Assembly: GCF_024345535.1 (NCBI RefSeq)
Contig: NZ_JAGQBH010000005.1
Coordinates: 62,001-126,000, forward strand
Direction: 5' to 3'
DNA: 64,000 nucleotides
From: Cyanobium sp. N.Huapi 1H5
GTDB lineage: Bacteria > Cyanobacteriota > Cyanobacteriia > PCC-6307 > Cyanobiaceae
Shown here one piece after another: positions 5,124 through 17,015 of the stretch; the stretch's first letter is position 1; every line of letters starts with the position of its first letter. The position numbers and the translations under genes are program-made. The notes beneath the pieces are model-generated. The model saw only the letters and a list, made by a program, of their open reading frames with translations. It did no database searches and was not told the origin of the DNA.

Positions 5124-6351
5124 GGCGGGGGGCGAGGGGGCCGGGCCCGAGCGCGGCCAGCAGCCGCTCGAGGGAGCCGGTGGGGAGATCCTGGCGCAGC
5201 ACCAGCCGCAGCCTGGCGGTGCCCTCCGGCACGGTGGGCGGCCTGATCGCCACGGTGAGCAGGCCGGCCGCTTCCAGCCGACGCTGGGCCGCGAGGGCCT
5301 CGGCGTCGGCGCCGAGGAGCAGCGCCAGGATCGGCCCGTCGCCGGGGGACCGGGGCCAGCCGGCGGCTTCGATGGCGTCGCGCCAGCGGGCGGCCCGCTC
5401 CGCCAGGGCCGGGCCCACGGACGGTGTGGCCTGGAGATGCCGCAGGGCCGCCAGGGCGCCGGCCGCCAGCGGCGGGGCGAGGGCGGTGGTGTAGCGGAAG
5501 GCGCCGCTGCTCTGCAGCAGCCAGTCGGCCACCAGGGCGTCGGCGGCGAGGAAGGCGCCGCCGCTGCCGAAGGCTTTGCCGAAGGTGCCGCTCACGATCG
5601 CCACGGAGCTGACGCCATGGGCGAGGCCGCGGCCGCCGGGGCCGAGCACGCCGAGGGCATGGGCCTCATCCACCAGCAGGGGCGCGTCGTGACGGAGGCA
5701 GAGGCCCGCCAGGGCGGCGACGGGCGCGCTGGTGCCCTCCATGCTGTAGAGGCTTTCGCAGAGCACCAGCAGCCGGCCATCGGGCCGTTCGCGCCGGGCG
5801 GCGAGCAGGCGGCGTTCCAGATCCGCCGGGTCGTTGTGGGCGAAGCGCCGCAGCCGAGCGCCGCTGGCGCGCACGCCCACCAGCAGGGAGTGGTGGATGA
5901 GCCGATCGGCCAGCACCAGGGTGTGGCGATCCGCCAGGGACGCCACGGCGGCGAGGTTGGCCTGGAAGCCGCTGGGAAAGAGCAGCACCCGCTCGCGGCC
6001 GAGCCAGGCGGCCAGGGCGGCCTCCAGCTGCTGGTGGATGGGCCGCGTGCCGGTGACCAGGCGGGAGGCGCCGGCACCCAGGCCACTGGCGGCCAGTTCG
6101 GCCGCGGCGGCCGCGAGCACGGCGGGGTGGCGGCTGAGGCCGAGGTAGTCGTTGCTGGCCAGATCCAGCAGGGGGAGCGCGTCGCCGGCGGGTGAGGGCT
6201 GGAGGCTGGCGGCGGCGGCGGGCTCAAGGGTGCGCAGGGCGCGGCTGCGGGCGGCGGGCAGGGCTTCGAGGGCCGAATGGAGCCTCTGGCGCCAGGGGGG
6301 CTGGGGGGCGGTGGGGTCGCCGGCTTCGGTGGTGGGGGGAGGAGGGATCAG
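5107..6351 (-). CDS. bioF: 8-amino-7-oxononanoate synthase BioF, start codon unresolved
   Basis: PLP enzyme that condenses pimeloyl-ACP with alanine to make KAPA, the first gene of this biotin operon. Recognisable parts are PPWRQRLHSALEALPAARSR, LLDLASNDYLGLSRHP, GAGASRLVTGTRPIHQQLE, LLVDEAHALGVLGPGGRG and IVSGTFGKAFGSGGAF with the PLP lysine. The frame is open from an in-frame TGA at 6370-6372, yet upstream of the conserved N-terminus it has no ATG, GTG or TTG; the first is a GTG at 6120, inside the protein after LSRHPA. I extend to a CTG at 6351 only as a placeholder. A TTG lies nearby in another frame and a one-base change in a C-run would join it. The missing start coincides with the left edge of the accessory island. 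Confidence 0.85.
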   Translation of the reverse strand: MIPPPPTTEAGDPTAPQPPWRQRLHSALEALPAARSRALRTLEPAAAASLQPSPAGDALPLLDLASNDYLGLSRHPAVLAAAAAELAASGLGAGASRLVTGTRPIHQQLEAALAAWLGRERVLLFPSGFQANLAAVASLADRHTLVLADRLIHHSLLVGVRASGARLRRFAHNDPADLERRLLAARRERPDGRLLVLCESLYSMEGTSAPVAALAGLCLRHDAPLLVDEAHALGVLGPGGRGLAHGVSSVAIVSGTFGKAFGSGGAFLAADALVADWLLQSSGAFRYTTALAPPLAAGALAALRHLQATPSVGPALAERAARWRDAIEAAGWPRSPGDGPILALLLGADAEALAAQRRLEAAGLLTVAIRPPTVPEGTARLRLVLRQDLPTGSLERLLAALGPGPLAPRHALAP

Positions 6352-6528
6352 GGTGGCCCGATACCAAGGTCAGGGGGCAGTCTGGGATGGGGGGTGGGTG
6401 AAGGCTCGATTCGGCCGTCTCTGAACCCTTGGCAGGCAGTGGCAGGGAGATTCAGGTGGGTCTGGAGTCAACGCTTGGGCTGTGTCACTTCAGACATGCG
6501 TTTCATCGGTGTAGCCCGGGATACAGGT

Positions 6529-6548
6529 GGTTCTCGGTTCCGAGAACC
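6529..6548. repeat. 20-bp near-perfect palindrome upstream of the radical SAM operon
   Basis: Two 9-base arms, GGTTCTCGG and CCGAGAACC, are separated by two bases. The core GGTTCTCGG recurs at 6662-6670. The pair could be operators for a regulator of the island or mRNA hairpins. Confidence 0.6.
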
Positions 6549-6661
6549 AGAGGCGAGCTCTTCGTGAGTGGGGTGGATAAGCTATGTGCTGACTGTGTTC
6601 TGGCCGTGGTGATGTTCGGGGTGTACCTGTGGTTCACGGAAAGGACAGGCGACTGAAGCGT

Positions 6662-6674
6662 GGTTCTCGGAACC
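6662..6674. repeat. Second copy of the GGTTCTCGG palindromic motif
   Basis: GGTTC-TCG-GAACC forms a 5-bp stem with a 3-base loop and repeats the first nine bases of the palindrome at 6529-6548, 133 bases away in the same orientation. It lies about 80 bases before the radical SAM start codon, a sensible place for an operator or a 5' leader hairpin. Confidence 0.5.
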
Positions 6675-6752
6675 GTCTAATGACTAGTTAGCGGCACAGA
6701 AGATCATGTTGCCACCAGTTCGGCGAGAAGCACGAAACGACGACATTGGTCC

Positions 6753-7736
6753 ATGCGAGCTATGGTGCTTCGACAGCGAAGTAGTAAGGTTGTGAACGGC
6801 TCGACTGTCTACCGTCAGTCTGGCGATTGGAAGCTGCGCGGCGGTCCAGCCGGGCTACACGTCTTCCACCGCAATACCGGTCTGAACGTCCTCATCGACG
6901 AGATTTTCGTTCCAACAGCTCTCCACGCGCGTGCTCCTCGTCAGGTCTCTATCGCGCTCTCAAACCGCTGCGATCTATCGTGCGCCCACTGTTACGCACC
7001 GAAGTTTCGCGGAGAGCTGCGGTTTGATAGTGTCACCCAGTGGCTCGCTGAATTGGACGCGGCAGGTACACTCGGAGTCGGCTTCGGTGGGGGTGAGCCG
7101 ACGCTCCATCCCGATTTCATGGAGCTTTGTCAATACGCGGCCCACGAGACGCAGTTATCGGTGTCGTTCACTACCCACGGACACCACGTCGACGCCGAGA
7201 TGGCCGACCACCTTCGCGGCAGTATCCACTTCATCCGTGTGAGCATGGATGGCGTCGGTCTGACCTATGAGTCCATCCGACGACGATCATTCGCCCAGCT
7301 GCTTGTGCGGCTCAAGGACGTTGGAACCATTTCGCGCTTCGGCGTGAACGTGGTGGTCAACGAACACACGCTCCCCGAACTTGATGAGGTCGCCCGTGTC
7401 TCCGCGGACGCTGGAGCCTGCGAACTTCTCCTGCTCCCCCAGATGCCCCTTCGGAGCGTGCTGGCCGCCTCCGCGGACACGCTTCAGGGGCTGCGTCGCT
7501 GGGTCGAGGGTTACAAGGGCCCACTGAAGCTCTGCATTAACGAGTCGAGCGCGGAAGGCTTCCCGACCTGCGATCCACTGGTGCAGGAAGGCGGCCTCCG
7601 CGCGTATGCCCACATCGACGCGACGGGAGTGCTCAAGCCCTCCTCCTATGCGGACACCGGTGTGCAGCTCGGCGATGGCGACGTGCTGCTGGCGCTCGCC
7701 CAACTCGAACACGACCTCGAGGAGAACGACAAATGA
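6753..7736 (+). CDS. Radical SAM protein with degenerate SPASM-like C-terminus, island gene 1
   Basis: A 327-residue radical SAM enzyme. The [4Fe-4S]/SAM motif CX3CX2C is in NRCDLSCAHCYAPKF (Cys73, Cys77, Cys80), followed by VGFGGGEPTLHPDF with the GGE SAM-amine motif at about 113-115 and the beta-strand FIRVSMDG. This is the PqqE/MoaA/SPASM branch. The C-terminal segment YAHIDATGVLKPSSYADTG resembles the G-x-V-x-P-C strand of SPASM domains, but serines stand where the cluster cysteines would be, so auxiliary clusters are probably absent. The substrate is unknown. Its stop overlaps the next ATG by four bases. ATG 6762 is an alternative start. It does not match viperin, whose cluster motif differs. 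Confidence 0.85.
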   Translation: MRAMVLRQRSSKVVNGSTVYRQSGDWKLRGGPAGLHVFHRNTGLNVLIDEIFVPTALHARAPRQVSIALSNRCDLSCAHCYAPKFRGELRFDSVTQWLAELDAAGTLGVGFGGGEPTLHPDFMELCQYAAHETQLSVSFTTHGHHVDAEMADHLRGSIHFIRVSMDGVGLTYESIRRRSFAQLLVRLKDVGTISRFGVNVVVNEHTLPELDEVARVSADAGACELLLLPQMPLRSVLAASADTLQGLRRWVEGYKGPLKLCINESSAEGFPTCDPLVQEGGLRAYAHIDATGVLKPSSYADTGVQLGDGDVLLALAQLEHDLEENDK

Positions 7737-8146
7737 AGATCTGGGTCCAGCATGGCTCCGAGCACTCCGCGAATCTCGTCATGATTGGGCACTTCGAGAA
7801 CGTCGCTGATGCGATGAAGGCAAAAGAGATCATCGACACACTGACGCAGCAAGTACGCGAGGAAGAGTTGGACGGCACCCGGACCATCGGTCATCGGTCG
7901 GAGCGGTACGGCGACGCGATGCTCGACCTTCTTGGGAAGCTAGACATTGGGTCGATCGGGCCGAGCGAACTCGAGCAGTTTTCATACGAGGTCGACATCA
8001 AAGCGGAGGGGAACGACCTCGTTCTGACGACTGAGGAACTCGACATTTCGGCGTTCCTCAAGGTGATGTTCCTGAATGGCGCACGCGTCGAGGTCTACTC
8101 GGCGCACGACTACCCTGACAGCGAGCACGGCCGGGGGCGCCGATGA
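7733..8146 (+). CDS. Small soluble partner protein (DUF6375-like), island gene 2
   Basis: A 137-residue protein opening MKIWVQHGSEHSANLVMIGH. The GSEHSANLVMIG start and the following AMKAKEIIDTL helix recall a domain of unknown function that I associate with DUF6375; this is from memory and unverified. The rest is acidic with alternating strands and helices, for example SYEVDIKAEGNDLVLTTEELDISAFLKVMFLNGARVEVYSAHDY, which might form a compact alpha/beta fold. There is no transmembrane segment, metal motif or leader-peptide-like cleavage site. It is coupled to the radical SAM gene by an ATGA overlap and ends 13 bases before the NTPase gene. It may be the substrate, adaptor or regulator of its neighbours. 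Confidence 0.7.
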   Translation: MKIWVQHGSEHSANLVMIGHFENVADAMKAKEIIDTLTQQVREEELDGTRTIGHRSERYGDAMLDLLGKLDIGSIGPSELEQFSYEVDIKAEGNDLVLTTEELDISAFLKVMFLNGARVEVYSAHDYPDSEHGRGRR

Positions 8147-8159
8147 GCATAGAACTGCT

Positions 8160-11100
8160 ATGCCAGCGCTGAACTGGGACATCTTCGCGGGGCTACCGGG
8201 GAGCGCGGAGAAGAACTTCGAACTGCTCTGCCGGGGTATCGTGCGCCAGAACTTCGGCAGCTACGGTATCTTTCGTGCTCTCGCGAACCAGCCCGGAGTT
8301 GAGTTCCACCTCAAGCTCGACAACCCCTGCGATGCGCTCGGTGATCCAGGGCGTTGGTGGGGCTGGCAGTGCAAGTGGTACAACCTCGCAGCGAACGGCG
8401 CACTGGGATCGACTAGGCGAACGAAGATCGAGGAAGGGCTAAGCAAGACTGAAGAGCACCTGCCCGACCTCACGGACTGGGTGCTGTGGACGCGCCGGAC
8501 GCTTACGAAGGACGACCAAGAATGGTTCAATGGTCTGGCGTCCAAGATGAGACTGCACCTGTGGACGGGTGACGAGGTCGATAACCTTCTAGCCGGGCCG
8601 GCCGCAGTTCTTCGCGGCACCTACTTCGGCGAGCTGGTTCTAACACCCGACATCCTGCGCGAGCGTCACGAACAGGCTGTCGCTCCGATTCGAGCACGAT
8701 GGCAGCCCAACGTGCATCACGTCGGTGAAATCGAGCGCGAGCTGCGGCGCATGCTCGGTGAAGTGGAAGCGTGGAGCACGCTTCGCGAGCTCGCGACCGA
8801 ACTGCGCGCCAGCGCGGAGGCAGTGGAATCCTCGCCAGCCGTGCCTGCTCCGCTTAAACCGTTCGTGACGGGCGTCGTCGCCACGTCCCGGCAATCGGCA
8901 GACACCCTGGACAGGGTCGCGGCAGTCATCGGCGTCGGCGACCTGGACCTCCTTCGTGACGAGCTCACCGCTCGGCCACGCGCGCTTCCTGCCGAGGTGG
9001 CAACGGCCCCAAGGAGGCTTCGTGCAAGCAACCACCGTGCGGGGCTCTATGCGACGAACGCCGTGGCGGGGTGCCACGATGAGTTGCTGCTGCTGAACGA
9101 GGTTGAGGCAGGCTTCTCTTCACGGCTCGTCGTGCTCATTGCGCCCGCTGGCTGCGGGAAGACGCACCTGTCGGCGCAACTTACGGCCGGAACGACTGCT
9201 CGCCCACCCGGATTTCTTCTTCACGGTCGCGACCTCCACGCGAGTCACACACTCGACGATTTAGCTCGTCGTGTGACAATCGCAGCGCAGCCTGTGCCGA
9301 GCATGGAGGCACTTCTCGCGGCAGTTGATGCTGCCGGACAACGTGCTCAGAAGCGTCTCCCCATTTTCATCGACGGCCTGAATGAGTCGGAAGATCCGAG
9401 GACGTGGAAGCCGCTGCTCGCCGCCCTGGAGACCACACTCGCGAAGTACCCGTACGTGCTGCTCATTTGCACGTTGCGCCCCGAGTTTGTGAGCGACGCT
9501 GTTCCTGAAGCAACCCGACGTGTTGAGATCAAGGATTACGGCGACGCGACCCTTGGTGCAATTCTTGCGCACTTCCGGCATTGGAGGATCGACGCCACCG
9601 ACGCCTACTTGCCCAGTTTCCTGCGCCATCCGCTCACACTCCGACTCTTCTGCGAGGTGACGAACCCCACCCGGCAGCAGGTCGTCGGGCTCGGCGCGAT
9701 GCCGGGTTCTTTGGCATCGCTCTTCGAGCGCTACCTAGAGCAAGTGGGCGTTCGAGTCGTTGAGCTCGCCTCACGCACGCACCGGTTCTTCGCGCAGGAC
9801 GTCAACGCGGCTATCGCGGCCATAGCGAACAAGCTGTGGGAGTCCCAAGCTAGGGCCATCGAGCTTGGTGAGCTTCAAGCCATGCTCGGAGATGCGCAGC
9901 GCCCGTGGGACCAGAGCATGGTGCGCGCGTTGGAGCATGAGGGCGTTCTGCTCCGGATGCCTTCAAACGGTAGCGATACGTTCGTACCGGTGTACGACAT
10001 GCTCGGTGGCCACATCATCGCCAACGCGCTGCTGGCGAGACACGGCCATAGCAGCTTCGAGACGTGGATCAAGGATCCTTCCACGACGACGCTGCTGTCT
10101 GGAAGCCACGGCGTTCGGCACCCGCTCGCGGATGACGTCCTCGGCTCGTTGGTTGGACAGGTCCCTCGTCGGTTCTACGCGAAGCAACTCTGGCAGTTGG
10201 TGGAGGAGCCGCTGCGTGGACGAGCGCTGCGATTGGCGGCGCACCTCGAACCCGCGTTCCTCGATGCGGTGACCATCGACGCGCTGATCGGCCTCGTTAG
10301 GACCGGAGATAATGAGATCCTTGACCGCCTGTGGCAGGTACGCGGCGCGCAAGGTCACCCGCTGAACGCCGAGGGGCTGGATCAAGCACTGCGAACGATG
10401 TCGGTCGCGGATCGCGATCTTCGGTGGACGGAGTGGGTCCGCAGGAACCATGACGACGTTTTGGGCAGAGGTCGAAGCTTGCTCCGCGACCTCGAGACTC
10501 TGGGCGGGCGCTGGCGAGGCGGGAACGTTCGTACGGGCGATAGGCTGCGCGCGCGCTGGGTTATGTGGACGCTCACGAGCACCGTTCGACGGCTGCGCGA
10601 TCAGGCGACATGCGCTCTGTATTGGTTCGGACGCGCCGATCCCGAAGGGCTCTTCGCGCTGACCATCGATTCGCTGCCGGTAAACGACGCCTATGTGGGC
10701 GAGAGGATGCTCGCGGCCGCATACGGCGTGGTGATGAGCCATCAGAGGGTAGACGCTGACTTTGGAGATCCTCTACGGCCGCTTCTCGAACAGCTTGCGT
10801 CGGCGCTCGTGGGGCAGTCGGCGACCGCACCGACGAACCACTATCTCGCGCGGCACTACGTACGGGGCATCGTCGCTTTCGCCGCGAAGTTCTACCCGGC
10901 CTCGAGGCCCTTCTCGCTTAGCGGCACATGGGCGTTCGCCGCACCGAGGCCAGTCCACGTACTCCCCGAAGGAGCCCTAGGAGCCGACGAAGCAGGGCGA
11001 ACGCTTCGCATGGACTTCGAGAACTACACGCTGGGAAGGCTGTTCGCCGATCGTGGGAACTACGACATGAACCACGCGGGGCATCAGGCCGCCGTGGCTC

Positions 11101-12278
11101 ATGTACGCGGGGTTGTGTGGGCGCTCGGATGGAGAACGGCGACGTTCGACGCGCTGGACAAAGGGATCGCCGAGGACGCCTATCGCCACGGTCGTGGAGA
11201 TCGATCGCTCGTAGAGCGCTACGGGAAGAAGTATGGGTGGATCGGCTTCTTCACGTATGCCGGGATCCTCGATGACCAAGCGCTGTTGCCGCATGAGAGA
11301 CCCTTCTCCGCCGTCGACATCGATCCTTCGTTTCCGGAGAAGCCACCGAGCGACGGTTCTTCTTCCGTTCCGGAGGTGTGGCTATCGCCGAGCATCGCAA
11401 GTCACGAGAGTTGGATGCGCGCCTGCGCGACCTCTCTGCCTGTCGGCATCATTCGTCGTGAGAGCATCGGAGGGCACATTGGACCATGGCTCGCCGTTCA
11501 TGGGTACCTCAGCGCCGAAGACAGGGTGCTTGGTCGCAGTGCGCGGGCATTCCTCTCAGCGTTGGTGCTCTCGAATGGGCACGAGCCACGACTCGTGGCT
11601 GCTCTGAAGGCTGGGGTCCGCCCCTGGGGAACTCGTGACGTGCCGAGTGACCACTACACCTTCGCGGGCGAGATCCCATGGCACCCAGACTTCGCCTCTG
11701 CGGCTCTCGCTGAGGGCGCGTACCGCGAGCACGTTCGGACAGGCACTCAAGCCGTCGACCTGGAGGTCGTTGCTCACGACTACGCCTGGGAGAGCAACCA
11801 CAGTGAGATGAATCGCGCGCGGAGTGCCCGCGTGCCATCTCAGCTCTTCTCTGCGCACTTCAACCTGCGCGGCCTCGCTCAGTCGTTCGATCAGGTCCTC
11901 CCCGACGGAAGCCCTGCGGCGATCACGCTCAGCGGCGTCGATGGCCTCGTGGGAGACGTTGTCTACATTCGGGAGGACCTGCTTCGGCAATACGTTGCCT
12001 CCCGCGCCATCGTGTGGTTCGTTTTCGGTGAGCGTGAGCTAAGACCCTATCCACCTTCACCGCCGCAATGGCTCATGGACGCTCAGCAGCAACAGACGAA
12101 CTCCTGGCAACAGGTTTTTACCGAGGCCGACGTCTTCCACAATGGGACACCAGCTCGAAGCAGGATGGCATCCGGGCGGCAGGCGGCGAAGCCGAGCACA
12201 GCGAAGAAGCGCTCCGGCAAGAAGGCTACGAAGCAGCCAACTCCCAAGGGTGCGAAGCGGTCCAAAAGGAAGCCGTGA
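8160..12278 (+). CDS. Large PD-(D/E)XK nuclease-like STAND/NACHT NTPase, island gene 3
   Basis: A 1372-residue multidomain protein. Residues about 15-110 look like a restriction-endonuclease fold: GVEFHLKL (46-53), Asp62 in GDPG and WGWQCKWY with QxK at 70-72. A helical linker leads to a P-loop NTPase: Walker A APAGCGKTHL (Lys334), Walker B PIFIDGLNE (Asp405), CTLRPEF and the STAND/NACHT-type LRHPLTLRLFCE. The long C-terminal half carries ENYTLGRLF, RGNYD (965-969) and ERYGKKYGWI (1019-1028) and probably acts as sensor. The last 37 residues are Lys/Arg-rich. Nuclease-STAND fusions such as Avs proteins sense phage proteins and then cut DNA; that role is inferred here. ATG 8160 is preferred over 8076, which overlaps gene 2. 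A 9-codon frame (8143-8172) overlaps the start. Confidence 0.85.
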   Translation: MPALNWDIFAGLPGSAEKNFELLCRGIVRQNFGSYGIFRALANQPGVEFHLKLDNPCDALGDPGRWWGWQCKWYNLAANGALGSTRRTKIEEGLSKTEEHLPDLTDWVLWTRRTLTKDDQEWFNGLASKMRLHLWTGDEVDNLLAGPAAVLRGTYFGELVLTPDILRERHEQAVAPIRARWQPNVHHVGEIERELRRMLGEVEAWSTLRELATELRASAEAVESSPAVPAPLKPFVTGVVATSRQSADTLDRVAAVIGVGDLDLLRDELTARPRALPAEVATAPRRLRASNHRAGLYATNAVAGCHDELLLLNEVEAGFSSRLVVLIAPAGCGKTHLSAQLTAGTTARPPGFLLHGRDLHASHTLDDLARRVTIAAQPVPSMEALLAAVDAAGQRAQKRLPIFIDGLNESEDPRTWKPLLAALETTLAKYPYVLLICTLRPEFVSDAVPEATRRVEIKDYGDATLGAILAHFRHWRIDATDAYLPSFLRHPLTLRLFCEVTNPTRQQVVGLGAMPGSLASLFERYLEQVGVRVVELASRTHRFFAQDVNAAIAAIANKLWESQARAIELGELQAMLGDAQRPWDQSMVRALEHEGVLLRMPSNGSDTFVPVYDMLGGHIIANALLARHGHSSFETWIKDPSTTTLLSGSHGVRHPLADDVLGSLVGQVPRRFYAKQLWQLVEEPLRGRALRLAAHLEPAFLDAVTIDALIGLVRTGDNEILDRLWQVRGAQGHPLNAEGLDQALRTMSVADRDLRWTEWVRRNHDDVLGRGRSLLRDLETLGGRWRGGNVRTGDRLRARWVMWTLTSTVRRLRDQATCALYWFGRADPEGLFALTIDSLPVNDAYVGERMLAAAYGVVMSHQRVDADFGDPLRPLLEQLASALVGQSATAPTNHYLARHYVRGIVAFAAKFYPASRPFSLSGTWAFAAPRPVHVLPEGALGADEAGRTLRMDFENYTLGRLFADRGNYDMNHAGHQAAVAHVRGVVWALGWRTATFDALDKGIAEDAYRHGRGDRSLVERYGKKYGWIGFFTYAGILDDQALLPHERPFSAVDIDPSFPEKPPSDGSSSVPEVWLSPSIASHESWMRACATSLPVGIIRRESIGGHIGPWLAVHGYLSAEDRVLGRSARAFLSALVLSNGHEPRLVAALKAGVRPWGTRDVPSDHYTFAGEIPWHPDFASAALAEGAYREHVRTGTQAVDLEVVAHDYAWESNHSEMNRARSARVPSQLFSAHFNLRGLAQSFDQVLPDGSPAAITLSGVDGLVGDVVYIREDLLRQYVASRAIVWFVFGERELRPYPPSPPQWLMDAQQQQTNSWQQVFTEADVFHNGTPARSRMASGRQAAKPSTAKKRSGKKATKQPTPKGAKRSKRKP

Positions 12279-12312
12279 ACACATCAGGCGGAAGGAGCCT
12301 GTCGAGCCGGCC

Positions 12313-12374
12313 GCTAACAACCGGTTGCAGCGGACGGCCCGCTGCGCGGCCCGCCGCTGAACCGGAACGTTAGC
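12313..12374 (+). repeat. Integron attC-like recombination site
   Basis: A 62-base imperfect inverted repeat begins GCTAAC and ends GTTAGC. The inner arms CCGGTT and AACCGG are separated from the outer arms by unequal spacers (2 against 3 bases), and a central stem CAGCGG...CCGCTG encloses a GC-rich loop. Outer core sites, unequal spacer and central hairpin are the attC (59-base element) architecture. It lies 34 bases after the NTPase stop and 8 bases before the next frame, the usual position between integron cassettes. The final core reads GTTAGCC rather than the strict GTTRRRY. No integrase gene is in the window. Confidence 0.75.
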
Positions 12375-12382
12375 CGAATTAA

Positions 12383-13357
12383 GTGATACCCACCATGAAA
12401 CCTTTTCATCTCAGTAACGAGGAAATCATTTTCTGGGTGACCGTTCTGACAGCGTGGGCTACAATAATCAGCCTTGCATATACCGCTTTAACTTTTCGCC
12501 TTAAGTCGGGAATGCAGATAAGAGGCAGCTATGGTCTAGTTGCCTCAAGTGTTTCATGCAATGACGGGTACATAAAAAGCATCACTCTTGAGAATCTGAA
12601 AGATAAAGCAGTAGTCATTTACGAAATTTGCTTAAGGCTCGCTTCAAATTGCTATTTGGTATTAGAAACCCTTGAGGCTGACCCATTAATTTTAAAACCC
12701 TTTGAGGTGTACACCAAGGAGTACGACCCAGTGGACTTTTATGGCATGAGCATGAAGACTCTCGATCTCAGGCCAATGTTCAAAGCAGAGAGAATGAATA
12801 AGATCAGAATTGTCTTGTCGACAGGAGAAGGTCTGTATCATGTTAAGCAATCAATTCGGATTAGAAGGGCATATGAGTTGTTCTTTAAGAACTACCTTAC
12901 TGCAATAGCTCAGCCGATACGATTAACCCACGAAGGAAGGGCGTATGGTGGAAACGCAATATATCTCTTAGAGCTTGTCGATTCTAAGGGTGAAGAGGCT
13001 TGTGTTCCAATTTATCCTGAAGACTATAGGGTGAAGAGGTTTAGAGACTTTCCTCTAACGCGTGAGTCCCTTATTTCTCGAGACAGTTTAGAGAAGTATT
13101 TGCAATCTAAGCAAGAGGAGGGGGTTCTCAAATGCGCCAGACTGAATGTCATTGATATGCAGGCAAGAAGGGAGATGCTCTACGCAGATTACAATCGAAA
13201 TCCAATCATAGTTAAACCCATGAGCAAGATAGCCCATGAGCTAATTGGCTTTGCCTATACAGTACTAGGAATGCAAAGAACTCATGGAGAAATCGGCGAG
13301 CTCGCTCTAGGATCAGTACCAAGCCCATGTTTTGCAGAAGGCTCAGGGCAGCTCTGA
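12383..13357 (+). CDS. AT-rich membrane-anchored protein of unknown function, island gene 4
   Basis: A 324-residue protein with strikingly lower GC and different codon use from every other gene here, so it is very likely acquired from a different source. One N-terminal hydrophobic segment (about residues 12-36, IIFWVTVLTAWATIISLAYTA) is followed by a soluble region. That region starts with an Ig-like beta-rich stretch (IRGSYGLVASSVSCNDGYIKSITLENLKDKAVVIYEI...) and continues with mixed helices. I do not recognise a family. Single N-terminal TM proteins of this kind occur in mobile islands, but no effector motif is visible. It starts at ATG 12383 (or 12395) right after the attC-like site, as a cassette gene would. 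Its link to the three upstream genes is uncertain. Confidence 0.75.
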   Translation: MIPTMKPFHLSNEEIIFWVTVLTAWATIISLAYTALTFRLKSGMQIRGSYGLVASSVSCNDGYIKSITLENLKDKAVVIYEICLRLASNCYLVLETLEADPLILKPFEVYTKEYDPVDFYGMSMKTLDLRPMFKAERMNKIRIVLSTGEGLYHVKQSIRIRRAYELFFKNYLTAIAQPIRLTHEGRAYGGNAIYLLELVDSKGEEACVPIYPEDYRVKRFRDFPLTRESLISRDSLEKYLQSKQEEGVLKCARLNVIDMQARREMLYADYNRNPIIVKPMSKIAHELIGFAYTVLGMQRTHGEIGELALGSVPSPCFAEGSGQL

Positions 13358-13565
13358 AGCGCTTATGGAGATTTCGTTAGATGTGGTGTGTCATCCTGCA
13401 CTCAGCGAGGATCGGCTAACAATGCCATACACCTGAGCCGCCTCCAAATCATTCTGTAATGATCTCTAGGCTTACTGCGGCCAGATGATTACAAGCGTTC
13501 AGCTTGTCAACAAGCCCAGTATCTTCATCGAGCCACCGCCTTATCAATGCAGATCAGGTGTGCCT
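13358..13565. other. Non-coding right edge of the island
   Basis: About 210 bases of intermediate composition between the AT-rich gene and the host gene ending at 13566. Two integron-like core motifs occur: GTTAGAT at 13376-13382 and GGCTAACAATGCC at 13414-13426. They are in the wrong order for a single attC and no matching arms were found. A small inverted repeat ACAAGC/GCTTGT lies at about 13491-13507. I see no tRNA end, IS remnant or terminator. Confidence 0.5.
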
Positions 13566-14111
13566 TCAGGCCATAGGCACATGCTCCACAAACACAAGCC
13601 TTCGGCCGGTCTTGGTGCTGGTCATGCTGTGGCGCGGGGCTGGACCATCGATGGCGTATTCCTCGCACTCGGCGATCACCAGTTGTAGCTCTGCGCCGTC
13701 CGGTTCGGGCAGATCGATCCGCCCGTCCCAGAGCGGCGGACGCAGCCAGAGCTGTTCCGCCCCGACCCCAAGGGCCAGGGCTTCGGCGAAACGGCGTTCG
13801 GCGATCAGCTCGCGGCCCAGTGCCAGCCGTTCCGGTGCCGGGGCGAATGGTCCGCCGGCCCGCTCCCCGTCGGCGGCAACGCCGTCGCCGATCCGGACCC
13901 TGCCGAAATTGGATCCGAGCGTGGGTTCCAGCCGTTCCAGCCACACCTCCACCACCGGTTTTGGCGTCACCGGCGTGACCTGATTCACCTGCCCGCTCTG
14001 AACGTCGATTTCGGAGCGCGGCCGCACCTCGCGCGAGCGTCCGCCTGCGGGGTCGCGGCTCCGCATCCAGCCCATCTCCTCCTGGCCTTCCAGCGCGATG
14101 GCCTTCATCAA
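13566..14111 (-). CDS. Conserved hypothetical protein
   Basis: A 181-residue GC-rich frame with host-like composition. It opens MMKAIALEGQEEMGWMRSRD and ends GRRLVFVEHVPMA. The middle PKPVVEVWLERLEPTLGSNFGRVRIGDG and LALGRELIAERRFAEALALGVGAEQLWLRPPLWDGRIDLP look like real protein, with a beta-strand-rich domain and a helical pair. I do not recognise a family, and no signal peptide or membrane segment is seen. It is the first host-like gene right of the island and divergent from the helicase at 14226, with about 115 bases between. A downstream ATG at residue 13 (MGWMRS) is also possible. An overlapping frame on the same strand (13525-14130) looks like its shadow. Confidence 0.6.
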   Translation of the reverse strand: MMKAIALEGQEEMGWMRSRDPAGGRSREVRPRSEIDVQSGQVNQVTPVTPKPVVEVWLERLEPTLGSNFGRVRIGDGVAADGERAGGPFAPAPERLALGRELIAERRFAEALALGVGAEQLWLRPPLWDGRIDLPEPDGAELQLVIAECEEYAIDGPAPRHSMTSTKTGRRLVFVEHVPMA

Positions 14112-14225
14112 GCCCGCTGGCCGAGCTCAAGGGCAGGCGTGCTGGTGCTCAACCCATTCTCGCGCATCGGCTCCCACGGCGCCTGAGCCGCGCGCCCCGG
14201 GGCGGCCGCGCCATAGGATCACCCG

Positions 14226-17015
14226 ATGCCCTCCAGCCCCACCGTCGGCTCCGCTGACACCACAACCGGTGGCGTGCCGTCGCTGGAGCAGCTGTTCCCC
14301 TTCCCCCTCGACGGCTTCCAGCTGGAGGCGATCGATGCCCTGAACCAGGGCCACTCCGTGGTGGTGAGTGCTCCCACCGGCTCCGGCAAGACCCTGGTGG
14401 GCGAGTACGCCATCCACCGGGCCCTGGCCCATGGCCAGAAGGTCTTCTACACCACACCCCTCAAGGCCCTCTCCAACCAGAAGCTGCGGGATTTCCGCGA
14501 GCAGTTCGGCCACGAGCGGGTGGGCCTCCTCACCGGTGATCTCAGCCTGAACCGGGAGGCCCAGGTGGTGGTGATGACTACCGAGATCTTCCGCAACATG
14601 CTCTACGCGGAGATCGACCACGCCGACGACGACCCCCTGGCCGATGTGGAGGCCGTGGTGCTCGACGAGTGCCACTACATGAACGACACCCAGCGGGGCA
14701 CGGTCTGGGAGGAATCGATCATCCACTGCCCGTCGCGGGTGCAGCTGGTGGCCCTCTCGGCCACGGTGGCCAATGCGGGCCAACTCACCGACTGGATCGA
14801 GCGGGTACACGGTCCCACCCGCCTGATCCACAGCGACTTCCGCCCCGTCCCCCTGGCCTTCAGTTTCTGCAGCGCCAAGGGTCTGCACCCCCTGCTCAAC
14901 GACGAGGGCACCGGCCTGCACCCCAACTGCAAGGTCTGGCGCCCTCCCAAATCCACCCGCCGCAAGGGACCGAAGGAACCGCGGCCGCCCCAGCCGGAGG
15001 CGCCGCCGATCGGCTTCGTGGTGGCCCAGATGGCGGAGCGGGAGATGCTGCCGGCCATCTACTTCATCTTCAGCCGCCGCAACTGCGACCGCTCCGTCCG
15101 CGACCTGGCCAAGGTGTGCCTGGTGGATCCTGAGGAGCAGGCGCGCATCCGCCAGCGGCTGGACGCCTTCATGGCGGTGACCCCGGAGGCGGTGCGGGAG
15201 GGCGGCCATGCCGACGCCCTGCTGCGGGGCATCGCCGCCCACCACGCCGGCGTGCTGCCGGCCTGGAAGGAGCTGATTGAGGAGCTGTTCCAGCAGGGGC
15301 TGATCAAGGTGGTGTTCGCCACCGAGACCCTGGCCGCCGGCATCAACATGCCCGCCCGCACCACCGTGATCTCGGCCCTCTCCAAGCGCACCGAGCGGGG
15401 CCACCGGCCCCTGATGGGCAGCGAGTTCCTGCAGATGGCGGGCCGTGCCGGCCGCCGCGGCCTCGACACCCAGGGCTATGTGGTGACGGTCCAGAGCCGG
15501 TTCGAAGGGGTGCGGGAGGCCGGGGCGCTGGCCACCAGCCCGGCCGATCCGCTGGTGAGCCAGTTCACCCCCAGCTACGGCATGGTGCTCAACCTGCTGC
15601 AGCGCTACGACCTGGCCAAGGCCCGGGAGCTGGTGGAACGCAGCTTCGGCCGCTACCTGGCCGGGCTGGATCTGGCCGAGGACGAGGCCCGCATCACCGA
15701 GCTGATGGCCCAGCTGGCCACGCTCGAATCCAGCGGCGGCGAGGTGCCCTGGGACGACTTCGAGGACTACGAGAAGGTCCGCGGCCGCCTGCGGGAGGAG
15801 CGGCGCTTGCACCGGATCCTGCAGCAGCAGGCCGAGGAGACCCTCGCCCACGAGCTCACCCTGGCCCTGCAGTTCGCCAGCGAGGGCACCCTGGTGAGCG
15901 TCAAGGCGCCGGCCCTGCGCAGCCGGGTCACCCCGGCGGTGATCGTGGCCAAGGTGCCGGGATCCGGCCAGTTCCCGCTGCTGCTCTGCCTCACCGACGA
16001 GAACGTCTGGATCCTGCTGCCCTGCCACGCGGTGGTGACCCTGCACGCGGAGCTCAGCTGCCTGCAGGTGGACCAGCTGGAGCCGCCGGAGCTGCACCAT
16101 GCCAACGAGCTGCGCCATGGCGACAACGCCAGCGGCGGCCTGGCCCTGGCGGTGGCCTCGATGGCCCGCCGCCACGACATGCACACCCCCCGCTACGACC
16201 TGGCCGGCGAGGTGCGGCAGCAGGGTGAGCTGGTGCAACGGCTGGAGCAGGAGCTGGAGGCCCACCCGGCCCACCGCTGGGGCGACCGCAAGCACCTCAA
16301 GAAGCACCGCCGCCGCATGGAGGAGCTGGAGGAGGAGATCGGCGAGCGCCAGCGGCTGCTGCACCACCGGGCCAACCGCCACTGGGACACCTTTCTGTCC
16401 CTGATCGACATCCTGCGCTTCTTCGGCGCCCTCGATGGTGAGGAGGGGCTCGAGCCCACCGAGGTGGGCCGCACCGTGGCGGCCCTGCGGGGCGACAACG
16501 AGCTCTGGCTGGGGCTGGCCCTGATGAGCGGCCACCTGGATGCCCTCGATCCGGCCGAGCTGGCGGCGGTGCTGGAGGCCATCTCCACCGAGGTGAACCG
16601 GCCCGACCTCTGGTGCGGCTACCCGCCGCCACCGGCCTCCGAGGAGGCCCTCCACGACCTGCGCAGCCTGCGGCGCGAGCTGCAGCGCCAGCAGGAGCGG
16701 GCCTCGGTGGTGGTGCCGGTGTGGTGGGAGCCCGAGCTCACCGGCCTGGTCCACGCCTGGGCCAGGGGCGCCAGCTGGAACGACGTGATCGCCAACACCT
16801 CCCTCGATGAAGGCGACGTGGTGCGGATCCTGCGCCGCACCGTCGATCTCCTGGCCCAGATCCCCTACTGCGAGGCGATCTGCGAGCAGCTGCGCCGCAA
16901 CTCACGGCTGGCCCTCAAGAGCATCAACCGCTTCCCGGTCTGTGAGATCGAGGATCTGCTGGCGGGCGGCAACGGCAAGCTGGATCCGGCGACGGAGCGG
17001 CCGCCGGCCGGGTAG
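14226..17015 (+). CDS. Ski2-like DEAD/DEAH-box RNA helicase
   Basis: A 929-residue superfamily 2 helicase of the Ski2/Mtr4 branch found across cyanobacteria and chloroplasts. Motifs in order are SAPTGSGKTLVGEYA (I, about residue 56), TPLKALSNQK (Ia), GLLTGDLS, MTTEIFRNM, LDECHYMND (II), LSATVAN (III), IYFIFSRRNCD (IV), AAHHAGVLPAWKEL, VVFATETLAAGINMPART (V) and LQMAGRAGRRGLDTQG (VI). The C-terminal half includes the arch/ratchet-type helical domains (RWGDRKHLKKHRRRMEELEEEI, a likely coiled coil). It probably unwinds RNA in processing or decay. Convergent with purB, with a hairpin-rich gap between them. Confidence 0.9.
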   Translation: MPSSPTVGSADTTTGGVPSLEQLFPFPLDGFQLEAIDALNQGHSVVVSAPTGSGKTLVGEYAIHRALAHGQKVFYTTPLKALSNQKLRDFREQFGHERVGLLTGDLSLNREAQVVVMTTEIFRNMLYAEIDHADDDPLADVEAVVLDECHYMNDTQRGTVWEESIIHCPSRVQLVALSATVANAGQLTDWIERVHGPTRLIHSDFRPVPLAFSFCSAKGLHPLLNDEGTGLHPNCKVWRPPKSTRRKGPKEPRPPQPEAPPIGFVVAQMAEREMLPAIYFIFSRRNCDRSVRDLAKVCLVDPEEQARIRQRLDAFMAVTPEAVREGGHADALLRGIAAHHAGVLPAWKELIEELFQQGLIKVVFATETLAAGINMPARTTVISALSKRTERGHRPLMGSEFLQMAGRAGRRGLDTQGYVVTVQSRFEGVREAGALATSPADPLVSQFTPSYGMVLNLLQRYDLAKARELVERSFGRYLAGLDLAEDEARITELMAQLATLESSGGEVPWDDFEDYEKVRGRLREERRLHRILQQQAEETLAHELTLALQFASEGTLVSVKAPALRSRVTPAVIVAKVPGSGQFPLLLCLTDENVWILLPCHAVVTLHAELSCLQVDQLEPPELHHANELRHGDNASGGLALAVASMARRHDMHTPRYDLAGEVRQQGELVQRLEQELEAHPAHRWGDRKHLKKHRRRMEELEEEIGERQRLLHHRANRHWDTFLSLIDILRFFGALDGEEGLEPTEVGRTVAALRGDNELWLGLALMSGHLDALDPAELAAVLEAISTEVNRPDLWCGYPPPPASEEALHDLRSLRRELQRQQERASVVVPVWWEPELTGLVHAWARGASWNDVIANTSLDEGDVVRILRRTVDLLAQIPYCEAICEQLRRNSRLALKSINRFPVCEIEDLLAGGNGKLDPATERPPAG

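Follow-up and report, generated by a model that had tools for sequence, protein, structure and literature searches.

Among described systems, the Avs receptors are the closest to the locus considered here. Avs2 (AVAST type 2) joins a nuclease-like N-terminus, a STAND NTPase and a large C-terminal part in a single gene. In the available parts of the sources, Avs1-3 are described as sensing the phage large terminase (PMC12724215), and the known Avs receptors are thought to sense phage proteins unaided (PMC12724215, PMC12931631). Radical SAM enzymes are tied to antiviral defence in the prokaryotic viperins (pVip), and others are peptide maturases (MftC, PqqE, SkfB), with a small protein encoded alongside. 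Kaur et al. 2020, in the portion of the text available, suggested that a radical SAM domain modifies a neighbour-encoded peptide in a conflict system dependent on nucleoside triphosphates, the vWA-MoxR systems (PMC7159879). These systems are compared below with a three-gene block, here called the trio, in 64,000 nucleotides of Cyanobium sp. N.Huapi 1H5 (contig NZ_JAGQBH010000005.1, positions 62,001 to 126,000). This whole stretch is referred to as the window. The trio encodes a radical SAM enzyme, a small DUF6375 protein and a nuclease-STAND NTPase and is, by analogy with Avs2, very likely a mobile anti-phage system.

All three genes lie on the + strand: the radical SAM gene at 6753..7736 (327 residues), the DUF6375 gene at 7733..8146 (137 residues) and the STAND gene at 8160..12278 (1372 residues). 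The first two share 4 bases (ATGA), and a 13-base gap precedes the third. A sequence-only reading of this DNA had reported the same co-directed genes with this overlap and gap, and the measured coordinates agree with it. The output of the open reading frame finder also holds an earlier ATG for the STAND frame at 8076, which would give 1400 residues; the start kept in relatives is the one at 8160 (MPALNWD). In this 3.1 Mb genome, the GC fraction of the trio is 0.63, with 0.76 upstream and 0.71 downstream. An Rfam search over 6100-14300 matched nothing.

The three genes travel together. DUF6375 adjoins a radical SAM gene at 12 distinct loci, the Vibrio records being counted once, and a STAND gene is present at 11 of them; the locus counted as lacking it (L006) is that of Deinococcus peraridilitoris. 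The co-occurrence on which the sequence-only reading depended is thereby borne out. The block is found in cyanobacteria, planctomycetes, Vibrio plasmids, one tailed-phage contig and, without the STAND gene, Deinococcus. The 4-base overlap of the radical SAM and DUF6375 genes is kept at 10 of the 11 trio loci, and this, with the same gene order across phyla, is more than chance would give.

The computations show that the trio has been transferred horizontally, plasmids being among its carriers. A tblastn search with DUF6375 returned 16 plasmid records, each with a radical SAM gene overlapping the DUF6375 start, and the same search with the radical SAM enzyme at E <= 1e-10 returned the identical 16 accessions. 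A STAND search matched 15 of the 16, the match adjoining DUF6375 by coordinates; in the record of D. peraridilitoris, an IS3 element follows DUF6375 and STAND is not among the matches. Twelve of the 16 records are from Vibrio, with DUF6375 at least 99% identical among them, and in two of these 12 an IS3 element lies inside the STAND match. Eleven of the 16 are predicted to be conjugative, and five were retrieved and inspected. A 33,025-base contig of a genome from the same class as the window genome has DUF6375 placed as in the Synechococcus elongatus PCC 11801 plasmid. The Vibrio pair, compared as DNA with E. coli genomes, matched nothing.

The trio is also carried by a phage. A complete copy was found through alignment of the radical SAM enzyme on a 16.6 kb IMG/VR viral contig (L076). 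Its identity to the window is 45% for the radical SAM enzyme, 44% for DUF6375 and 34% for the STAND protein, the latter being 41% identical to the Vibrio one. Downstream follow genes for a protein resembling leucine-rich repeat (LRR) proteins, a head maturation protease, a lambda-type head decoration protein, major head and head closure proteins, and then tail terminator, tail sheath, tail tube and tape measure proteins. The LRR-like gene (6524-7510) is the one between the trio and the protease. Accessory genes at such phage positions often exclude other phages. With DUF6375 as query, neither tblastn against phage records nor an alignment scan of viral contigs gave a match, and when phages were searched by DNA, three Gordonia records matched over 51 bases.

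Some trio copies sit on large chromosomal contigs, for instance one on a 1.9 Mb cyanobacterial contig (L015). Another (L002) is on a contig labelled as a Rhodopirellula metagenome-assembled genome (MAG); the contig is only 12 kb long, so that the binning may be wrong. Three further genomes from the phylum or class of this MAG hold the trio (L016, L045, L046). In L045 and L046 the contigs end inside the STAND gene and only its start is visible, and in L016 the STAND frame has one stop (10165-10167) after about 134 residues, behind the nuclease-like part. Candidates L012 and L013 were dropped because DUF6375 was under the cut-off in the phylum scan, and L077 because it was a 73-residue piece of another radical SAM protein.

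The distribution among genomes is sparse. The genome searches were samples, with at most two radical SAM or STAND candidates per genome scored in one scan and at most five in the other. DUF6375 was above the cut-off in one of 150 genomes of the order (the window genome itself), four of 386 of the phylum (again including it), two of 294 of the MAG's phylum and three of 297 of the MAG's class, the MAG being counted in both of the last two. Across the 386 cyanobacterial genomes, radical SAM matches at E <= 1e-96, long STAND matches (about 1180 or more residues aligned) and DUF6375 all fall in the same four genomes. The next-best radical SAM match is at 6.6e-17, and the other four STAND matches reach 24-27% identity over 278-596 query residues. 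The open reading frame lists of the 12-13.5 kb stretches around these four weaker matches show no radical SAM or DUF6375 neighbour, and their genomes gave no DUF6375 match. A housekeeping role was rejected on the counts for the order and the phylum, and the site itself is empty or otherwise filled in relatives.

The STAND protein is a distant relative of Avs2. It matches the PADLOC Avs2 profile with 293 bits (1.2e-87), the best stretch being residues 3-910, and the only Protein Data Bank (PDB) chain below E 0.1 is the Avs2 chain 9o4e. When a profile built from trio STANDs is aligned with single-gene Avs2-like proteins, the match extends into their C-terminal part. NQPGVEF and GWQC, which we take to be motifs of a PD-(D/E)XK (Mrr-like) nuclease, are invariant in seven homologues and lie in the window at 8286..8375 (NQPGVEF ... 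GWQCK, + strand). The Pfam search of the N-terminus gave no nuclease match; the Avs2 profile does align from residue 3. Walker A (APAGCGKT, 9141..9164, + strand) and Walker B (IFIDGLNE, 9363..9386, + strand) are likewise preserved, with A330, G331, G333, K334, T335 and I404-E409 (IDGLNE) invariant in the same number of homologues. The Walker and STAND-type motifs claimed from the sequence are thus confirmed.

Canonical Avs2 identity was rejected. The score against the NCBIfam Avs2 model is 187.4 bits, under the curated cut-off of 1000, and the single-gene relatives L055 and L059 score 1687 and 1682 bits on the PADLOC profile. In a tree, eight trio STANDs are split from 11 others by a 100/100 branch, the root being unknown and the composition uneven. 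The tree was made without L018 and H52 (pieces), L045 and L046 (cut by contig ends) and L076 (found later). The trio differs from Avs2, a single gene, in having three linked genes (11 of 12 loci) and a receptor in its own clade. At five single-gene plasmid STAND loci, no radical SAM gene is annotated within the 3-4 kb flanks. Pieces resembling the C-terminal half of STAND were also seen on a Paraburkholderia plasmid (L018), where no radical SAM gene is annotated, and on a Streptomyces plasmid (H52), with 49% identity over about 120 query residues. By analogy, the STAND protein appears to work like Avs2, yet it is not filed as one.

A defence role is suggested by the match to the Avs2 profile. 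It is supported by three contexts: the phage contig, the AbiEi and AbiEii genes that in L016 immediately precede, in the same orientation, the radical SAM gene, and the corresponding chromosomal site of a relative, which holds PADLOC candidates (see below). Neither the matches listed from PADLOC 2.0.0 (2023) and NCBIfam nor the papers searched contained a named system made up of these genes; there is no whole match, and the STAND protein partly matches Avs2. The literature search, whose scope did not extend to subscription papers and most preprints, returned nothing on radical SAM enzymes with Avs2, nothing on Avs2, terminase and Mrr together, and no paper naming DUF6375. Text combining radical SAM, AVAST and STAND concerned viperin, as far as the sources were available, and the whole words 'radical', 'STAND', 'Avs' and 'SAM' are absent from the DefensePredictor main text. 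The view of the sequence-only reading that this is an undescribed defence system is hence supported, as none of its three tests (recurrence of the trio, a housekeeping role, identity with a named system) went against it. The new element is a dedicated pair of genes beside an Avs2-related receptor.

The first gene of the pair encodes a radical SAM enzyme by its match to PF04055 (1.3e-15). The CX3CX2C motif, already noticed in the sequence, corresponds to C73, C77 and C80 within residues 73-80 (6969..6992, + strand) and is invariant in an alignment of 11 homologues. Of the seven cysteines of the window enzyme, only these three are invariant, and the C-terminal part has none; auxiliary clusters are therefore unlikely. 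The best NCBIfam match is the mycofactocin maturase MftC (67.8 bits, cut-off 265) and the best PDB match is SkfB. In contrast to the peptide maturases, the enzyme lacks invariant C-terminal cysteines, a SPASM-type feature, and the partner forms a folded domain whose conserved tail is N-terminal. The only PADLOC matches are two prokaryotic viperin models (1.1e-16 and 2.3e-12). Viperin identity was rejected on score (46.6 bits against a cut-off of 180, with seven other NCBIfam models scoring higher), and, unlike pVip, the enzyme is linked with DUF6375 and STAND genes. The viperin analogy drawn in the sequence-only reading is accordingly weak.

The second gene matches PF19902 with 140 bits (9.6e-41; gathering score 27.5). 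An AlphaFold2 model predicts a ferredoxin-like domain (mean predicted local distance difference test score, pLDDT, 78.9), preceded by a tail that is conserved and, according to the model, disordered (residues 1-11, pLDDT below 50). Residues 1-12 have the pattern MKxWxxYGSEHS (7733..7768, + strand); the window peptide considered as a candidate target is MKIWVQHGSEHSANL. These 12 residues have a mean identity to the majority of 83%, compared with 56% for the remainder, and seven of the 14 invariant residues fall among them. Codons 2-12 show silent differences in four of five pairs (from 0 to 4 of the 11 codons per pair, the pairs not being independent of one another), so that selection seems to act on the protein. 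A conserved, unstructured tail on a protein whose gene overlaps a radical SAM gene is what would be expected of an enzyme target or a docking segment. The precedent for such a modification is the suggestion in the available text of Kaur et al. 2020, although the vWA-MoxR systems have other NTPases and another architecture, and neither a nuclease-STAND protein nor DUF6375 occurs in that portion (PMC7159879).

In the best reading, which is held with middling confidence, the radical SAM enzyme modifies the DUF6375 tail and DUF6375 licenses or tunes the receptor. The single-cluster enzyme would bind DUF6375 and chemically modify its tail, MKxWxxYGSEHS. The modified protein would then join or license the receptor as a co-sensor, lock or activator. 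By analogy with Avs2, the C-terminal part of the STAND protein would sense a phage protein, its NTPase domain would oligomerise, and the N-terminal Mrr-like nuclease would cut DNA. That the pair serves the NTPase is suggested by the linkage, and from the conservation and the predicted disorder we infer that the tail may be the substrate. DUF6375 itself may act on the receptor.

Several points weigh against this reading. After GWQC, the window and eight of 11 trio loci have K, presumably the nuclease lysine, and L005, L045 and L046 have R, so that cutting is not assured everywhere. The model of the C-terminal sensor is too poor for use (mean pLDDT 46.2), and sensing is thus argued by analogy alone. 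As for DUF6375, the model is built on eight sequences only. The lead of the tail in conservation is moderate: residues 1-12 rank sixth among 12-residue segments, those starting at 6-10 and running into the first strand being slightly higher and the best one being 8-19. DUF6375 matched no PADLOC model, its sequence profile gave nothing below E 0.36 in the PDB, and its fold gave no Foldseek match at E 0.001. The best fold match has a Z of 6.8, and PII-like PstA and CutA1 are at about 6; such likeness is at the level of a common arrangement and carries no function. Being conserved and disordered, the tail might just as well serve for docking and take up its fold on a partner.

Such docking is part of a different reading, in which the radical SAM enzyme would modify the STAND protein itself and DUF6375 would serve as an adaptor or chaperone, attached to the enzyme or the receptor by its tail. 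The same linkage data fit it, DUF6375, predicted to be a small domain and bearing a conserved tail, has the size of an adaptor, and the trio STANDs form their own clade. It is nevertheless regarded as unlikely: no stretch special to the trio STANDs is known as a site, though no dedicated search was made, and their last few hundred residues are variable, with long gaps. Quite unlikely, in turn, is that the enzyme makes a small molecule, either viperin-like or a signal, which DUF6375 would bind to switch the receptor. The two viperin models that are its sole PADLOC matches and the PII-like fold matches of DUF6375 can be cited in its favour, but the viperin cut-off is missed, MftC scores higher, and the fold matches are those of a common arrangement.

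Two further explanations do without phage sensing or without any joint function. The pair might restrain a toxic nuclease-STAND protein in a toxin-antitoxin or addiction module. Carriage on plasmids, mostly predicted to be conjugative, and the Deinococcus pair without STAND would suit such a module, which is improbable in view of the copies on large chromosomal contigs, one of them at a site occupied in a relative by candidate defence genes. Moreover, Avs2 relatives are immune receptors according to the available part of the source (PMC12724215). Finally, most copies are on plasmids, on the phage contig or at a variable site, where unrelated passengers could share a mobile element. The repetition of order and overlap on unrelated replicons of different phyla makes this very unlikely, and the linkage counts speak strongly against it. 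The modification of the DUF6375 tail remains the preferred reading. An extension of it, put forward only tentatively, is that an NLR-like receptor is armed or guarded by a modified partner, the receptor reading the state of the tail. It is likewise doubtful, if attractive, that phage interference with the tail, SAM or the enzyme would release the nuclease, as a guard mechanism in bacteria.

The chromosomal site in the window is a place where cargo changes. Between the aligned ends of bioF and a DSHCT helicase gene, relatives G132 and G010 have about 340 bases and the window about 8 kb. Relative G147 has a helicase with 99% identity and, at this site, other genes over about 7 kb. At 10183-15726 of L035 they include an AAA/NACHT-like ATPase, a trypsin-like protease, a third gene and a PDC-M02A/B pair, which is a PADLOC candidate defence system. 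This cargo, again of integron type, bears two attC-like sites of its own. In another relative (G127), a different radical SAM gene was seen upstream of the DSHCT helicase (L036, 11638-12987).

The ends of the trio resemble those of an integron cassette, with a change of cargo at GTTAGC on the left and a computed attC-like hairpin on the right. The similarity to G147 stops exactly at GTTAGC (6687..6692, + strand). The core consensus of integrons is GTTRRRY, and attC sites form a bottom-strand hairpin with paired R boxes and unpaired bases. The window's GTTAGCG fits such a core only in part. Right after the STAND gene lies an attC-like site of 64 bases (12312..12375, + strand). Its bottom strand folds with a z of -6.2 (none of 200 shuffles as good) and its top strand with -4.8. 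The sequence behind the L002 STAND gene matches this site with 92% identity over 76 bases, and there the similarity ends. A simple attC scan of the window gave one match in 20 kb, with 0.2 expected (controls: single-base shuffles in 200-base blocks, 10 each). Two integron integrases over the cut-off lie on contig C1 of the window genome, outside the window, with none in 14 control genomes; four attC-like matches lie around one and a single match around the other.

Against a cassette, the R boxes of the L002 site are degenerate and its fold reaches only a z of -2.1. The scan matched in five of 17 stretches (window, L035, L007, L073 and L074) and was negative at eight trio loci (L002, L003, L004, L005, L015, L016, L045 and L046). 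Its thresholds had been loosened, and a stricter version, with another threshold and fewer stretches, missed sites of the L007, L073 and L074 type. The match in L007 follows a later gene and not the trio, and the rest of the genome contains no close DNA copy of the window site. With 12 of 17 stretches lacking a match, the cassette would be one of several vehicles at most. Phage defence on integrons is in print, in the available part of a source (PMC12444791) that cites Darracq, Getz and Kieffer 2025. The trio shares with such defence cassettes the attC-like site, the defence-type cargo and the integrases elsewhere in the genome; it differs in its size of about 5.7 kb, its three genes and the eight other trio loci without an attC match.

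Other features were noted near the trio and its copies. A gene for a 324-residue protein (12383..13357, + strand; 43% GC) follows, outside the conserved trio, and is a possible second cassette; the protein matches nothing in Pfam, PADLOC or NCBIfam at E 0.1. An attC-like start, GGCTAAC, occurs near 13413 and has no matching right end. On contig C1, an integrase is accompanied about 8-11 kb beyond by four attC-like matches (L073, 6459-19127), with genes for an AAA_21 ATPase similar to AriA/PtuA models and a methyltransferase. In L007 (13118-16372), integron-type genes (qnrVC6, dfrA, DUF3265) follow the Vibrio trio at a distance of about 640 bases on a conjugative plasmid.

If the preferred reading is true, a modification made by radical chemistry can belong to receptor-based bacterial immunity. 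A clade of Avs2-like receptors seen only beside a radical enzyme and a small protein suggests that such a receptor can depend on a modified partner. The vehicles of the trio are conjugative plasmids, one phage and a cassette-like form. DUF6375 would thereby offer a substrate for testing, in which a candidate site is already defined.

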